DNA from: a virus
IMG/VR virus record: IMGVR_UViG_3300044956_000293
Span: 1 to 29,044 of that record
DNA: 29,044 nt
Reading direction: 5' to 3' (one strand)
Part shown: one piece after another, positions 7,102 through 28,993 of the stretch
Layout: each line of letters opens with the position of its first letter
Numbering within the stretch: the first letter of the stretch is position 1
The notes under the pieces: generated by a model
Database searches by the model: none
What the model saw: the letters and a program-made list of their open reading frames with translations, nothing else
Told to the model about the DNA's origin: nothing
Translations under genes and position numbers: made by a program

Positions 7102-7131
7102 TAGTCCCATTTCTAGGGAGAAATGGGACTA
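7102..7131. repeat. Repeated hairpin element, copy 1
   Basis: Perfect 13-bp arms (AGTCCCATTTCT at 7103-7114 and AGAAATGGGACT at 7119-7130, plus a closing T-A pair) enclose a 4-base AGGG loop. It lies in the gap between the 139-residue gene and the holin. The same element recurs at 23660-23687 and 25555-25582. No T run follows on the minus strand, so it is not an ordinary terminator. Confidence 0.85.
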
Positions 7132-23659: not shown

Positions 23660-23687
23660 AGTCCCATTTCTAGGGAGAAATGAGACA
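23660..23687. repeat. Repeated hairpin element, copy 2
   Basis: Arms AGTCCCATTTCT (23660-23671) and AGAAATGAGACA (23676-23687) with the same AGGG loop as the other copies. The one internal change makes a C-A mismatch in plus-strand RNA but a U-G wobble in minus-strand RNA, the strand transcribed here, so pairing is kept only there. It lies 58 bases upstream of the capsid fusion start and 20 bases after a terminator. On the plus strand TTTTT follows. Confidence 0.85.
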
Positions 23688-23752: not shown

Positions 23753-25285
23753 CTACTCGTCCTTCGTGTCTTCCGGTGGCGGAGCTGGCGGCGCCCCCTT
23801 GTTCTGGTTGGCAAAGTTGGACTTGAACACCAGCCCCTTCTCCGCGCATTCCTTGCGGTGGGCCGTGATCTGCTCGAGCACGTCGCGCGGGTTGACGCCG
23901 CGTTTGCGCATGACCTCGACCTCGCTGGCGAAGCCGGCCTCGACGAGCGCTTGCCATGCCATGGCTTCCTTGAGCGGATCGATCCAGGGCATGGACTGGC
24001 CGACAAAAAGCGCGTCGTCGGCCGTGTCCGGATCCACGTCCGCCGGCATGGGTACGACGCCGGAAAGGCGCGCGGCCAGGACGAAGTCGTTCCAGGTCGG
24101 CTGCACGAACTGCCCAACGAACTCGTCGCACAGCACCGCGTAGTGGATCCACTGCTCCACCAGCTCCTGCCGCTGGGACGAATACGTGCCGCTGTAGTCG
24201 CGCGAGATGCTTGAGTAGCTGCCGCCCAGGCCGGCCGCTACCGCACGCAGCTGACCCTGGCGAAACGTGACCAGATTGGGGTTTGGACGGTTGGAGTCGA
24301 TCATGCCGATTTCCTCGCCCACCGCCAGGCTGTCGATGATCATGCCGGGTGACAGGTTCAGCTCTCGCGGCTGGTCAGCCGGCGCGTCCGGGTCCGCACC
24401 GAAGTTATCGGGCGATCCCTTCTTGACGTACGCGGTCAGGGAGGCCGCGACCTTCGCGGCGATGCGCTCGGATTCTTCGTAGTCCTTGATGTCCTCGAGG
24501 CGTGTGATGACGCTGGCGAATTCGGAAACGCCGCGCAGCTGACCGATGCGGTCGAGCGAAGCGATATGGTGCATGCGACCTGCCTCAATCCGCTTGAGCT
24601 CGTAGCTGCGCTTCGTCCACGTATCTCCGCCTGGGAATTCCTTGTAGGCCCAGTAGCCGGTCGGCTTGCCCCAGGTGTTGCGCTCGATCCCCTGCTGGAT
24701 CCCGCGCGCGGCATCGTGGTGATCGAAAGGAATCAGGTCGGGCTCGATCAGCTCTAGCGAATATGGAACTTTGGTGCCGTGGTCCAGCAGTGGCACGGCG
24801 CCGATCAGCCGCTGCGCGAAGCACTCGCCGTCACGCAGCCAGGTCTTCGCCACCAGGCGCTGCACCTTGCTCCAGTGGTGCCGCTGCGTCACCTCTGGCG
24901 TCTGGGCCCAGTCACGGTAAGCCGTGCGCAGCGCGGCCGCGTACTCGACGTGGATGGAGCCATCACGGCGACGCGGCTGCGGCTCGATCCCGATGCCGCT
25001 TGCGCCTACCACGTTGTTCACCAGGGTACGCAGCGCACCGCGCGCGATGTCGTGGTTGGCCTCGAGGTTGCGGGCCAAGCCACGCAGGCCGACAGCGCCC
25101 ATCTGCGGGCCAGCGTTCGGGGAACCATTGGCCTTGCGGCCCTTACGCAGACGGGAGGGCTTGGCCGCCTCGTAGTGGCTCAGCACGTTCCGCGCGGCCA
25201 GGCGGCGCACGCCGGCACCGGGGAAGAAGAACGCGATCGCCTGGTCGATGAAGTTGAGGTGCACCTTCGGGTCGGCTTTCATCAT
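23753..25285 (-). CDS. Portal protein (lambda gpB-like)
   Basis: A 510-residue portal protein, the dodecameric ring at the unique capsid vertex through which DNA enters and leaves. The first third (NFIDQAIAFFFPGAGVRRL, LRGLARNLEANHDIARGALR, VNNVVGASGIGIEPQPRR) and YRDWAQTPEVTQRHHW are typical of lambda-class portals, as are RGVSEFASVITRLEDIKDYE, the MIDSLAVGEEIGMIDSNRPN segment and SYSSISRDYSGTYSSQR. A proline-rich acidic tail ends the protein. Two adjacent ATGs (25285, 25282) are possible; the first shares its A with the gpW-like gene stop (TGATG). It is followed by a terminator, not by coupled translation into the capsid gene. Confidence 0.93.
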   Translation of the reverse strand: MMKADPKVHLNFIDQAIAFFFPGAGVRRLAARNVLSHYEAAKPSRLRKGRKANGSPNAGPQMGAVGLRGLARNLEANHDIARGALRTLVNNVVGASGIGIEPQPRRRDGSIHVEYAAALRTAYRDWAQTPEVTQRHHWSKVQRLVAKTWLRDGECFAQRLIGAVPLLDHGTKVPYSLELIEPDLIPFDHHDAARGIQQGIERNTWGKPTGYWAYKEFPGGDTWTKRSYELKRIEAGRMHHIASLDRIGQLRGVSEFASVITRLEDIKDYEESERIAAKVAASLTAYVKKGSPDNFGADPDAPADQPRELNLSPGMIIDSLAVGEEIGMIDSNRPNPNLVTFRQGQLRAVAAGLGGSYSSISRDYSGTYSSQRQELVEQWIHYAVLCDEFVGQFVQPTWNDFVLAARLSGVVPMPADVDPDTADDALFVGQSMPWIDPLKEAMAWQALVEAGFASEVEVMRKRGVNPRDVLEQITAHRKECAEKGLVFKSNFANQNKGAPPAPPPEDTKDE

Positions 25286-25512
25286 CAATCCCCGAACCTG
25301 GCCACGGAGTACGACATGCCGCCGATCGACGGGCTGCGGCTGGCACCGCGGTTCTCTTGGGCGACGCGCGCCTCCCACTCGCGGCGGCCTGCGCGGATCT
25401 CCTGGAGATTTTCCATGCCCATCGAGCGGCCCTGGAAGGTGATGGTCTTGCCGGCCAGGACGGCCTGCTCGGCCTCGAGGTACTTGGCAAGCATTTGTGC
25501 TGATGTGGTCAT
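25285..25512 (-). CDS. gpW-like head-tail joining protein
   Basis: A 75-residue protein. TTSAQMLAKYLEAEQAVLAG, KTITFQGRSMGMENLQEIRA and GRREWEARVAQE give the helix, beta-hairpin, helix plan of lambda gpW, which plugs the portal and provides the tail docking site. Its position right before the portal gene is the same as in lambda (W then B). The ATG at 25512 has AAGGAG 7 bases upstream; a longer form from 25542 lacks a binding site. The gene is preceded by hairpin copy 3. Confidence 0.85.
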   Translation of the reverse strand: MTTSAQMLAKYLEAEQAVLAGKTITFQGRSMGMENLQEIRAGRREWEARVAQENRGASRSPSIGGMSYSVARFGD

Positions 25513-25554
25513 TGGACGCTCCTTAATCTGAGCGCCCAACACTACCGCTGAGGC

Positions 25555-25582
25555 AGTCCCATTTCTAGGGAGAAATGAGACT
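25555..25582. repeat. Repeated hairpin element, copy 3
   Basis: AGTCCCATTTCT (25555-25566) and AGAAATGAGACT (25571-25582) around AGGG, differing from copy 1 by one base that is a U-G wobble in minus-strand RNA. The stop codon of the HEPN-motif gene (25581-25583) lies within the hairpin arm. Like copy 2 it is followed on the minus strand by GCC. Confidence 0.85.
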
Positions 25583-26564
25583 ACAGATATGACATTGGTT
25601 CGAACGAGGAAAGCCAGTCTTCGATGTCACGTTCTCTGGCTGAGTACACCCGCTCCCTGGCAGTGTATCCCACGAGGCGACGCATCGACCCCATACCGTA
25701 GTCCTCAACTTCCCATCGCGCCCACTGCTCAGCATATTGCTTCCATACGCGGTGGAGCCGATAGAACTCTTGTTGGCGATTCCTTTTTTTTGCGTACTGA
25801 CGGGCCAATCGAAGTGACTGAGCAAGACGATGCCTTGATTCGCCGTAACGTTTTGCAGCATCATCCCGCATTTCAACTTGCGTTAGCGGCTGTTCTTTCC
25901 ATACCGTTTCCCATAGCAACGCATCGATTGCCATTGCTAGAGTAGTCACACAGTCGACGGCGGTGAGCGCTTGAGCGGGTGTTACGACATAAGTCGTTGC
26001 AGCCTCATGAGCCAGAATGTGACGCCTTTCGAATGTCTCTGCCAAGTCTCGCCATAATGTGTTGATGTCTTCAACGATGGGGGAGCACTCTATTTCGCGC
26101 CTGACGCAAAAAGGATCGCAGACCGCAGCGAGGATCTTTTTGAAGTCACCTCCCAGCAAAGCTCCAATAGGATCCTCAATACTTGCAACCGAGTTGAATG
26201 GAAGCTGATGGGCTATTAGTTCCCCTACGGTTATGGTCTTGCGGTGTAAGCTCGGGAGGATTTCCGAAAATGACTTGAAGCGATCTTTCGTTAGGACGAG
26301 CCCCCGCTCGAGATACGGCGAACCGGCGTCTACGATAGCTTGAACAGTCGCCTTAAAATGTGTCTCAAGTACAGCAATCGCTGCTACAGGAAAGTATCTG
26401 TATAGCTCGGTGCTCTTGATCTCATCGATCGCTTGGATGGCTTTTCGTAAATCCTCCAGGCGGACAAGGGCATCGGCCAATGCACCTTCCATTTGCCCCC
26501 CTAGGTGTCTTGCCCGTGCTGCAATCAGCTGACCTTCAATTGACGTTGCACTAGCCTTTGCCAT
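25581..26564 (-). CDS. HEPN-motif accessory protein, possible phage defence RNase
   Basis: A 327-residue, mostly helical protein with no signal or membrane segment. Its clearest feature is ERRHILAHEAAT, with R181 and H186 forming the RX4H motif of HEPN domains, many of which are RNases in toxin-antitoxin, abortive-infection and CRISPR systems. Long helices precede it (EGALADALVRLEDLRKAIQA) and follow it (TAVDCVTTLAMAIDALLWET); the C-terminal 90 residues are rich in Arg, Trp and Tyr. GC content is visibly lower than in its neighbours. It has its own strong GGAGGG binding site and a TTGACA box upstream, and ends inside the repeated hairpin. It interrupts the usual terminase-gpW-portal order, so it is a moron insertion. 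RNase activity and defence are inferred; no partner nucleotidyltransferase is adjacent. A non-enzymatic role remains possible. Confidence 0.75.
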   Translation of the reverse strand: MAKASATSIEGQLIAARARHLGGQMEGALADALVRLEDLRKAIQAIDEIKSTELYRYFPVAAIAVLETHFKATVQAIVDAGSPYLERGLVLTKDRFKSFSEILPSLHRKTITVGELIAHQLPFNSVASIEDPIGALLGGDFKKILAAVCDPFCVRREIECSPIVEDINTLWRDLAETFERRHILAHEAATTYVVTPAQALTAVDCVTTLAMAIDALLWETVWKEQPLTQVEMRDDAAKRYGESRHRLAQSLRLARQYAKKRNRQQEFYRLHRVWKQYAEQWARWEVEDYGMGSMRRLVGYTARERVYSARERDIEDWLSSFEPMSYL

Positions 26565-26594
26565 TCACCCTCCATTCAGAATTTCGCATTAGTA

Positions 26595-26623
26595 GGATGA
26601 TTGAAAGCGTGCACGTCTGTCAA
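26595..26623 (-). promoter_or_regulatory. Candidate promoter of the HEPN-motif gene
   Basis: On the minus strand a perfect TTGACA (26623-26618) lies 54 bases upstream of the start codon in the AT-rich gap 26565-26639. No good -10 hexamer is found at 16-18 bases (TCATCC is the nearest), so it may need an activator or be weak. Expression from the prophage independent of the late operon is the implication. Confidence 0.35.
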
Positions 26624-26639
26624 ATATGCAACTACAGTT

Positions 26640-26915
26640 CTAGTCGCCCTTGATGAACCTGTAGAACTGCGATCGGCTGATGTTGTACTCGAGCATTAGC
26701 TCCTTCCGGTTGCGGCCGTTGTACTTGGCCTTGATCTCCAGAGCTCGCGCCTCGGGGTCGACGTTGTGCTTCTTCACATAGACCTCCTGGCCACCCCACT
26801 GCGTGCGGAGCATGGTGTCGACCATTCGCTGCTTCTCGGGGGTGAAGACCCCGAGGCCGAGCGTGGCGCCCACCAGGCTGACGAAGGCGCCGACAATGTC
26901 GTGTTCGTTTTGCAT
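26640..26915 (-). CDS. Mor-like helix-turn-helix protein after terminase
   Basis: A 91-residue protein. The C-terminus KAKYNGRNRKELMLEYNISR followed by SQFYRFIKGD is a helix-turn-helix like the one ending Mor/C-type phage activators and many small prophage regulators. The first half (IVGAFVSLVGATLGLGVFTP, EKQRMVDTMLRTQWGGQEVY) is not recognised. The ATG shares its A with the terminase stop (TAATG), so it is made together with packaging proteins. It could activate late genes or bind DNA in packaging; a small terminase role is less likely since a candidate precedes the large subunit. No ribosome-binding site independent of coupling is evident. Confidence 0.75.
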   Translation of the reverse strand: MQNEHDIVGAFVSLVGATLGLGVFTPEKQRMVDTMLRTQWGGQEVYVKKHNVDPEARALEIKAKYNGRNRKELMLEYNISRSQFYRFIKGD

Positions 26916-28993
26916 TAACTAAATCCCCTACTGGACCAATCATCGGACGCGAATCGGTTGCCCGCGCTCCTGTTCTGTGCCGGCGCCGGTGGCGTAGCCG
27001 GTGCTGGCGGTTTCTGTTGCTGCCTTGGCGGCGCCGGCTTCACGGGCTCTGGAGTTGCTGCAGCCGGCTGGCTGAAGAGGTCGCCGATCGCTGGCTGGAC
27101 TTCGGCCTCAAGTGCGTCCCACCACTTGGCCGGCTTCTTGGGCAGCTCGAGGTGGACTTCGAGCCAGACCGCGTAGACCGTGCAGTCCCACGCTTCCACG
27201 CGCTTGCGCAGCGCCGTCCAACGCGATTCCTTTCCGCCGGCGGTAGCCCGCTCAACCCGAGCCTCGCCAGCCATTTGCGCGTAATACTCATCCGTCGACT
27301 CCTTCGAGAAGTGCATGTAGCCGGGTCCCGGCTTCGTGATCTGCAGGCGGCCGTAGATCAGGTCCTTGGCCAGGTTGGTACCGACCTGCCACAGATGCAG
27401 GCCGCGCTTCTTCGTCTTGCCACGCCAGTCGATGTCCACCTTCGTGACGCCATCCTTGATATGCTTCTCCCGCCCCGAGCGGCCCTTCACAGCGAAGATC
27501 TTCCGGCCCAAGGCCGCGTGCTTGTGCACGAAGGCGTAGACCGCCTGGGTGTGGTGGCCACCGGTGTCGATCGACGAAGCGAAGATCTGCAGCTGCTTGC
27601 CGCACGCGTGCGGGAATTCGGTTTCGAAGAGGTACTCGGCCACGTCCTCCCACACCTGGTCCTCACTCGGGTTGCCATACAAAATCCGGTGATCGACTTT
27701 CCAGGTCTCGCACCCGCGCCCGTAGCCGCGCACCGTGACCTCGATGCGGTTGTCCTGCGTGTCACAGCCGGCCAGCAGGCGCACACACCCCATCGGCACC
27801 GTGCCGAGCTTGTAGGGCTCGGCACGTTCCTTCAGCTGCTCGGCGTCGCTCTTCTCCTGCTCCAGCGCCCAGACCTCACCCAGGGTCGTGTTCGTAAACG
27901 CCTTGAGCTTGGTGATGTCGCCGCCCTGGGCCGCCTCGTAGGCTTCCAGGAATTCCTCGACCAGCCGCGACCAAGTAACCAGTGGGCTGTACGCCGTCCA
28001 CACGTGAAACGCGATGTGCTCGAGCGTCGGGATTTCCTCGCCGGCCGCGTTGCGGAACACGCCAGCAGCATCGACGGTGATGCTGCCGTCCTCGTTCTGC
28101 CAGCGGCCCTGGTCGGCTACCGCCAGGTACTGCGCCTGGGAGATCAGGCAGCCGTTGTGCGGACACATGTGCAGCACCGTCTCGGGATCGCCGTTGATCC
28201 ACCTGAAGCCGTGCTTGTCGTCCTTCTTCCCCCATGACAGCGCATGGAACTCGCCGCACGATGGGCATGGGATCGCGTACTTGAGGCGGACATCGGCCGC
28301 CCGGTACCGGTCATCGATAAGCGAGAAGCCCTGCAGCTTCGGCGTCGAACCGGTGATGATCTTCGGGAAGGTCGCCCCTTCCACCCGCTTGGCTGCCAGC
28401 ACGTCCGGCGAGCCTTCCTTCTCAACGTCGCGGTCGAAAGCGTCCAGCTCGTCGAGCAGGGCAACGTCGACCGAGATCCGGCGGTACGCGCGCGCGGTGG
28501 TGCCACCACGCGTGTGCAGCAGGCAGCCGAGGAACTTCTTCTGCGCGAGCGTGTTGTCCTTGTGCCGGGACACGTGCGCCGGCATTGCCTTGCGCATGAC
28601 CTTCACGTCGCGCAGCATCGGGTCGAGCTCGGTCTTGACGAACTCGTCGCTGTCACCGTCGGTCGGCTGCCAGAGTGCCTGGTTGCGGCGCTTGTGCTCG
28701 GCGAAGTAGCCGACGGCCGCCAGCAACATCTTTGTGTAGCCAACGCGGGCAGACTTCTTGAAGTCGATTGCGCGGATGTCGTCGTTGCTGATGCATGCCA
28801 GGATCGCGCGCTGGAAGGGCCACGGGCGCCACGCCTGCTCGACGTAGGACGACTCTGCCGACAGGTAGAAGTGCTGCGCCGCCCACTCCTCGAGCGTCAT
28901 CGGCGGCGGCACGCCGAAGGTGCCGAGGCCACGCGAGACGGTCTTGGCCAGCGCCGGCGAGTCCCAGTTCAGGACTTCGTGCATCGCGGTCAT
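26915..28993 (-). CDS. Terminase large subunit (GpA family)
   Basis: A 692-residue terminase that cuts concatemeric DNA and drives it into the prohead. The N-terminal ATPase has a Walker A variant KSARVGYTK (80-88, the lambda gpA form) and Walker B VALLDELDAF with D181/E182. A CPSCG and a CPHNGC pair suggest a zinc-binding insertion. The nuclease domain shows LLAGCDTQDNRIEVTVRGYG and IDTGGHHTQAVYAF with acidic metal ligands. The Pro/Ala-rich C-terminus (PPRQQQKPPAPATPPAP) likely contacts the portal. The family includes lambda gpA, which makes cohesive ends, so cos packaging is plausible. The ATG at 28993 overlaps the stop of the preceding gene (ATGA). Confidence 0.96.
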   Translation of the reverse strand: MTAMHEVLNWDSPALAKTVSRGLGTFGVPPPMTLEEWAAQHFYLSAESSYVEQAWRPWPFQRAILACISNDDIRAIDFKKSARVGYTKMLLAAVGYFAEHKRRNQALWQPTDGDSDEFVKTELDPMLRDVKVMRKAMPAHVSRHKDNTLAQKKFLGCLLHTRGGTTARAYRRISVDVALLDELDAFDRDVEKEGSPDVLAAKRVEGATFPKIITGSTPKLQGFSLIDDRYRAADVRLKYAIPCPSCGEFHALSWGKKDDKHGFRWINGDPETVLHMCPHNGCLISQAQYLAVADQGRWQNEDGSITVDAAGVFRNAAGEEIPTLEHIAFHVWTAYSPLVTWSRLVEEFLEAYEAAQGGDITKLKAFTNTTLGEVWALEQEKSDAEQLKERAEPYKLGTVPMGCVRLLAGCDTQDNRIEVTVRGYGRGCETWKVDHRILYGNPSEDQVWEDVAEYLFETEFPHACGKQLQIFASSIDTGGHHTQAVYAFVHKHAALGRKIFAVKGRSGREKHIKDGVTKVDIDWRGKTKKRGLHLWQVGTNLAKDLIYGRLQITKPGPGYMHFSKESTDEYYAQMAGEARVERATAGGKESRWTALRKRVEAWDCTVYAVWLEVHLELPKKPAKWWDALEAEVQPAIGDLFSQPAAATPEPVKPAPPRQQQKPPAPATPPAPAQNRSAGNRFASDDWSSRGFS

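Follow-up and report, generated by a model that had tools for sequence, protein, structure and literature searches.

What is a gene for a putative HEPN-type RNase doing between the packaging and head genes of a phage, and could it serve the defence of a lysogen? The question is raised by a locus in a virus record of 29 kb, the whole of which was analysed here and is called the window. On its minus strand the terminase gpA gene is followed by a Mor-family HTH gene, the gene under study (the HEPN-LprI gene) and a gpW-like adaptor, and flanking-gene annotation thus bears out the position between terminase/HTH genes and gpW that had been given in a first-pass annotation. The reading frame which it had called is real and intact (327 codons), and the lower GC content it had pointed to was confirmed, with 51.8% in the gene versus 62.3% across the whole window. 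The features of the locus are as follows, in positions of the window.

25285..25542, minus strand: gpW-like head-tail adaptor (phrog_118), the 3' flank of the slot
25555..25582, minus strand: backbone hairpin with a 12-bp stem and a 4-base loop, overlapping the stop codon and forming the 3' boundary of the slot
7106-7125, 23663-23682 and 25558-25577: copies of the hairpin core
25581..26564, minus strand: HEPN-LprI gene (327 aa)
25583..26640, no strand: inserted cargo segment, replaced by ~10 bp at this point in the sister phage G008
25629..25886, minus strand: LprI/DUF1311-like domain (residues 227-312), without disulfide cysteines
25893..26489, minus strand: HEPN-like domain (residues 26-224; AlphaFold2 pLDDT 91.4, pTM 0.88)
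26007..26024, minus strand: RX4H motif (R181-H186), RHxxxHE being invariant in the family, at the end of helix 167-186
26352..26366, minus strand: Ex3K motif (E67-K71) in helix 52-79; Ex3[KR] is a secondary HEPN signature
26568..26573, minus strand: ribosome binding site GGAGGG, 3 bases ahead of the ATG
26618..26623, minus strand: TTGACA box without a supported -10, of a frequency expected by chance
26640..26915, minus strand: Mor-family HTH gene, the 5' flank of the slot
26915..28993, minus strand: terminase large subunit gpA

At the left end of the window a tRNA-Leu(CAA) is followed by an integrase-like gene (30-1304), which is likely the prophage end with its attachment site. In searches for the host of the phage group, the Mor-like protein was matched in none of 399 Burkholderiales genomes (a search without positive control) and a close terminase was found in none of 369 genomes of the class.

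Cargo slot between the Mor-like gene and gpW

Related phages were fetched with the hairpin core CCCATTTCTAGGGAGAAATG as the query, and the terminases of the 12 contigs obtained were 80-99% identical to that of the window in 11 cases and 47% identical in one. In the sister phage G008, with a terminase 99% and a gpW 100% identical to those of the window, homology ends with the stop of the Mor-like gene (window position 26641) and picks up again where the hairpin has its foot (25582). Three phages have 10, 36 and 47 bp between the Mor stop and the hairpin, and nine, the window counted among them, have 678-1476 bp. A second search, made with the Mor-like protein and independent of the hairpin, yielded six further contigs: two with empty slots (near-duplicates), one with cargo of the membrane-protein type, one with a response-regulator-like ORF and two sharing one 141-aa ORF. 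Altogether, other AT-richer cargo occupied the slot in 12 of the 17 scorable related contigs and the slot was empty in five, counts that are small and partly non-independent and that omit G009, which was too distant for scoring.

The GC content of the cargo was 40-54% versus about 59-64% in the flanking phage genes; in the phages of the hairpin search alone, it was 40-52% for the inserts and 63-64% for the backbone. Its content varied among the phages, i.e., an antisense pair of uncharacterised genes (G001, G011), a membrane protein (G002), a secreted-looking antisense protein (G003), an acyltransferase of PF01757 (G004), an antisense PIN_8 protein (G006), an antisense DUF4062 protein (G007) and an antisense pair (G012). 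Since much of this cargo runs against the direction of the late genes, the slot admits genes that need transcription of their own. The interval between the Mor-like gene and gpW is an exchangeable cargo site, and the HEPN-LprI gene, which has no partner gene beside it inside the slot, is a moron or cargo insertion, as shown by its precise absence in close sisters and its atypical composition. A moron-like insertion had been suspected before, and the empty alleles of the sister phages now establish it.

Morons occur in the head genes of other phages, e.g., the lambdoid HK97 and HK022, and these are likewise lower-GC genes inserted between late genes; the present case differs in that an own promoter is not demonstrable and the stem-loop is a backbone element. 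P2-like phages and P4 satellites have defence hotspots (PMC9122126), which share with the Mor-gpW slot a fixed site near packaging functions and swapped, partly defence-like cargo. However, phage type and site are different here, the boundary is a conserved hairpin, and the cargo includes genes without a known defence role.

The hairpin at this boundary deserves separate treatment. In the first-pass annotation the stop codon of the gene was placed in a repeated hairpin; the overlap, with the outer stem, and the repetition both hold (three exact copies of the 20-bp core in the window, 0.02 expected), but the hairpin is not the gene's own. The 28-base element (loop AGGG/CCCT) recurs in 18 related phage contigs, at sites between late blocks (Mor/gpW, portal/protease-capsid and tail/lysis), and one copy in the window lies just beyond the tail genes, ahead of a lysis-like cassette. 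Sister phages without the HEPN-LprI gene have it at the same position, and the hairpin or a one-base variant of it stood at the 3' edge of the slot in all six contigs of the Mor search. The hairpin is part of the phage backbone and not of the HEPN-LprI gene, with the stop codon overlapping its outer stem because the insert ends there.

The transcribed strand of the hairpin folds well (z -3.0), with no U-tract 3' of it, so that it is not an intrinsic terminator; a role as the gene's own terminator was rejected on these grounds, i.e., a backbone element and an absent U-tract. A role as HEPN substrate was unsupported, since phages lacking the gene retain the hairpin. Covariation within the first 14 copies was not above that of shuffles; at a position that is C-G in most of the first set, all six phages obtained independently of the hairpin have a T-A pair. 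The hairpin may function in the processing of RNA, in regulation or in recombination. Between the portal gene and the second hairpin of G010 lies a small ORF (L069 2841-3134), and the hairpin may therefore flag a second insertion site.

The signals that had been read upstream as the gene's own binding site and promoter box did not withstand counting. The CGTGCACG palindrome occurs twice in the window with 1.55 expected, and TTGACA ten times with 9.2 expected; TTGACA was absent upstream of four close homologues, and no candidate passed a sigma-70 promoter scan upstream of the gene. With both motifs at chance level and no promoter from the scan, expression in the lysogen is plausible, if unproven. 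The direction of the gene is that of the late operon, and late expression is therefore possible.

A two-domain HEPN-LprI family

As a single query sequence, the protein had no match in viral or genome contigs, nor in phage records by tblastn, and no family for it was found in PADLOC, NCBIfam or PHROGs. It was a tblastn search of plasmids that first opened the family, with relatives in Sulfuricurvum, Neorhizobium, Ensifer and Paracoccus; alignment-based scans, which came after, added 14 more genomic loci and several loci on viral contigs. In the resulting alignment of 18 rows, with 19-44% identity to the window protein, G114, R181, H182, H186, E187 and G292 were invariant and E67, H119, L136 and F178 nearly invariant. 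The window protein clustered with Burkholderiales proteins (support 100/100). Members are rare, 2 of 399 Burkholderiales genomes having a full-length match, and come from alpha- and gammaproteobacteria, with Burkholderiales among them, and from Campylobacterota. These proteins constitute a two-domain HEPN-LprI family, unmatched by PADLOC-DB and unnamed in the literature searched, in which no paper combined HEPN with LprI or with DUF1311. The earlier interpretation had recognised the HEPN-type motif correctly, but neither the protein family nor its LprI/DUF1311 domain at the C-terminus had been noticed, nor the hotspot with its empty and alternative alleles.

The RX4H motif is present at R181-H186 as had been reported, within an RHxxxHE block (R181, H182, H186, E187) that is the same in 18 of 18 aligned members; because these residues are invariant at such low identities, the motif is more than a chance occurrence. 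AlphaFold2 gave a confident all-helical model of the whole protein (pLDDT 85.9, pTM 0.78), with helices 28-45 and 52-79, an insert at 84-160, and helices 167-186 and 196-219. By the published definition, helix 2 of a HEPN domain carries an acidic Ex3[KR], and helix 3, which comes after an insert, closes with RX4H and is followed by helix 4 (PMC3710099). Judged along the chain of the model, the helix order and the insert between helices 2 and 3 agree with it; Ex3[KR] is found in helix 2 as E67-THF-K71 in the window protein and as ExxxR in most relatives, and the polar residue (N, D or H) expected after the arginine is the invariant H182.

Profile and structure searches, which had been proposed as a check, came out in part for HEPN and in part against it. 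HEPN_RiboL-PSP (PF18735) matched 6 of the 18 members below threshold (E up to 0.1, best 1.4e-4; 1e-4, also below threshold, for the Sulfuricurvum member), and several of these matches extend over the whole domain. The PF18735 score was 12.2 bits for the window protein and 22.7 for the best relative with a Pfam cut-off of 28.4, and no member reached the Pfam cut-off for any HEPN family. In hhalign, the N-terminal domain was related to eight RiboL-PSP proteins with a probability of 0.5%. Among the PDB matches that Foldseek listed for the full model and for the HEPN domain alone there was no HEPN, which is not decisive because the fold is all-helical; among viral structures (BFVD), the second match was a HEPN_MAE_28990 protein (prob 0.54, the highest listed; TM 0.48).

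From sequence and model together, the N-terminal domain very probably has the HEPN fold, and it is not filed in any named HEPN family. It shares the RX4H, the helix order and weak profile matches with HEPN_RiboL-PSP and HEPN_MAE_28990 (PF18737); however, the members fetched of these two families mostly have R[ND]xxxH, where the present family has RHxxxHE, and the LprI fusion was not seen in them. The weak profile scores and the lack of a solved HEPN structure among the Foldseek matches listed could also be accounted for by a non-enzymatic, all-helical accessory protein, with a structural RHxxxHE and a fold other than HEPN. This is distinctly unlikely, as the motif, Ex3[KR], helix order and insert all agree with the HEPN definition and the weak HEPN_RiboL-PSP matches arose independently in several members.

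The C-terminal domain is, from sequence and predicted structure, assigned to LprI/DUF1311. Matches to LprI (PF07007) were obtained in 17 of 18 members (best 1.3e-11, several over the cut-off), the window protein itself scoring 16 bits with a cut-off of 22. The probability in hhalign versus stand-alone LprI proteins was 99.4%, and over 90 columns the model fits the DUF1311 structure 3gi7 with an rmsd of 1.7 A (TM 0.78). Domains of this type are usually found in bacterial lysozyme inhibitors. LprI proteins have been linked to lysozyme resistance or the control of peptidoglycan hydrolases, and ScwA is a periplasmic LprI protein with two disulfides (PMC7933661). The C-terminal domain resembles the LprI/DUF1311 proteins (M. 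tuberculosis LprI, Salmonella ScwA; 3gi7) in fold and in the blocks TQxeMN, AW, GGSxxP and R..L, but the window protein is fused to HEPN and differs in two further respects: no signal peptide was found in its sequence, and the four disulfide cysteines, each column of which holds cysteine in 7-8 of 9 stand-alone proteins, were retained in 0 of 18 fused members. The fused LprI domain therefore looks cytosolic.

These differences bear on the possibility that the protein is a late phage factor, in which LprI tunes endolysin or peptidoglycan hydrolases for lysis timing or superinfection exclusion and the HEPN-like part is a scaffold. Such a role would suit the known ties of LprI proteins (PMC7933661) and the orientation of the gene in the late operon. 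It is nevertheless very improbable in view of the missing signal peptide and cysteines, the invariance of a catalytic-type RHxxxHE, and the occurrence of members away from phage late operons, on chromosomes and plasmids.

Neighbourhoods of the relatives and a proposed function

Several relatives are found in defence-like surroundings: one near GajA and a UvrD helicase (L008), one adjoining an AAA ATPase related to Septu/HEC-04 (L006), one within a restriction operon with DUF4062 (L002) and one near RnlAB toxin-antitoxin genes (L005). Others have phage neighbours, i.e., terminase small subunit and HNH (L015, L027), terminase gpA, in a copy with a broken frame (L025), the portal gene (L014, L022), the minor-tail region (L021), a terminase downstream (L026), a portal/capsid contig (L020), or an integrase (L007, and L024 by sequence only). 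The location had been called unusual, a description which is too strong, as relatives recur in packaging and head modules of unrelated phages. Several relatives have neighbours without a visible tie to defence, and most loci of the family are a single gene without a conserved partner.

We consider it probable that the gene is cargo of a temperate phage encoding a cytosolic HEPN-type RNase, gated by its LprI domain, for defence of the lysogen. The protein would be made in the lysogen and held inactive until infection by another phage switches it on; the HEPN dimer would then cut RNA, and growth or phage production would be halted (abortive infection), with the LprI domain restraining the RNase or sensing the trigger. 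The RNase activity, the gating role and the anti-phage effect are each predicted here. A defence or exclusion function had already been suggested, and the present results point the same way: sister phages have empty alleles or unrelated cargo at the same point, and relatives adjoin Gabija (GajA/UvrD), Septu/HEC-like, restriction and RnlAB genes. The lack of a PADLOC model match and of a recognised promoter counts against it.

There is also a precedent in Tha, a tail-activated HEPN anti-phage system of S. aureus prophages (PMC11087260). Both are prophage-encoded single effector genes for proteins of about 300 aa that have HEPN with RX4H, and Tha waits in the lysogen and cuts RNA upon infection, as is proposed here. 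However, in Tha the HEPN domain is C-terminal with the motif RNSIMH, the gene has int and the Ith inhibitor as neighbours, and an LprI domain is absent; no sequence relation between the two was detectable, and hhalign was negative.

HEPN domains are also common as toxins (PMC3710099), and the protein could be a selfish or growth-regulating RNase, toxin-like and restrained by its own LprI domain, that is not aimed at phages and persists as a passenger of the slot. The solitary gene in most loci and the one relative near RnlAB would be consistent with this. It is unlikely, as no antitoxin lies next to the HEPN-LprI gene, most of the named genes around relatives belong to defence or to phages, and the other cargo of the slot is, as a class, not toxin-like.

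HEPN RNases often serve as effectors in the immunity of bacteria and prophages, with the trigger set by the fused domain, and under the defence reading the HEPN-LprI family offers a testable class of trigger. One speculation, to which we give little chance of being right, is that the LprI domain, made cytosolic by losing its signal peptide and disulfides, senses the endolysin or other muramidase of an invading phage as it accumulates before lysis, and that binding frees the HEPN RNase. If true, this would be a defence that detects the lysis enzyme.

Some minor observations concern individual loci. The copy with the broken frame (L025 7944-8909) is present as two ORFs and represents a decayed or mis-assembled member. 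In two alphaproteobacteria a conserved uncharacterised gene, with the signature CxLTGxxGxxVKSHxIP, lies directly upstream of the HEPN-LprI gene (L010 6922-7752 and L017 6979-7854; 37% identical) and is a possible partner. DUF4062 was encountered twice, as slot cargo (L066 923-2128) and directly upstream of the HEPN-LprI gene on the Sulfuricurvum plasmid (L002 5048-5947). The other cargo between the Mor-like gene and gpW (L060-L071 and L117-L122) provides candidates for lysogen-encoded functions, and the hairpin-bounded slot is in this respect a source of more such genes, including PIN_8, DUF4062 and several uncharacterised ones.
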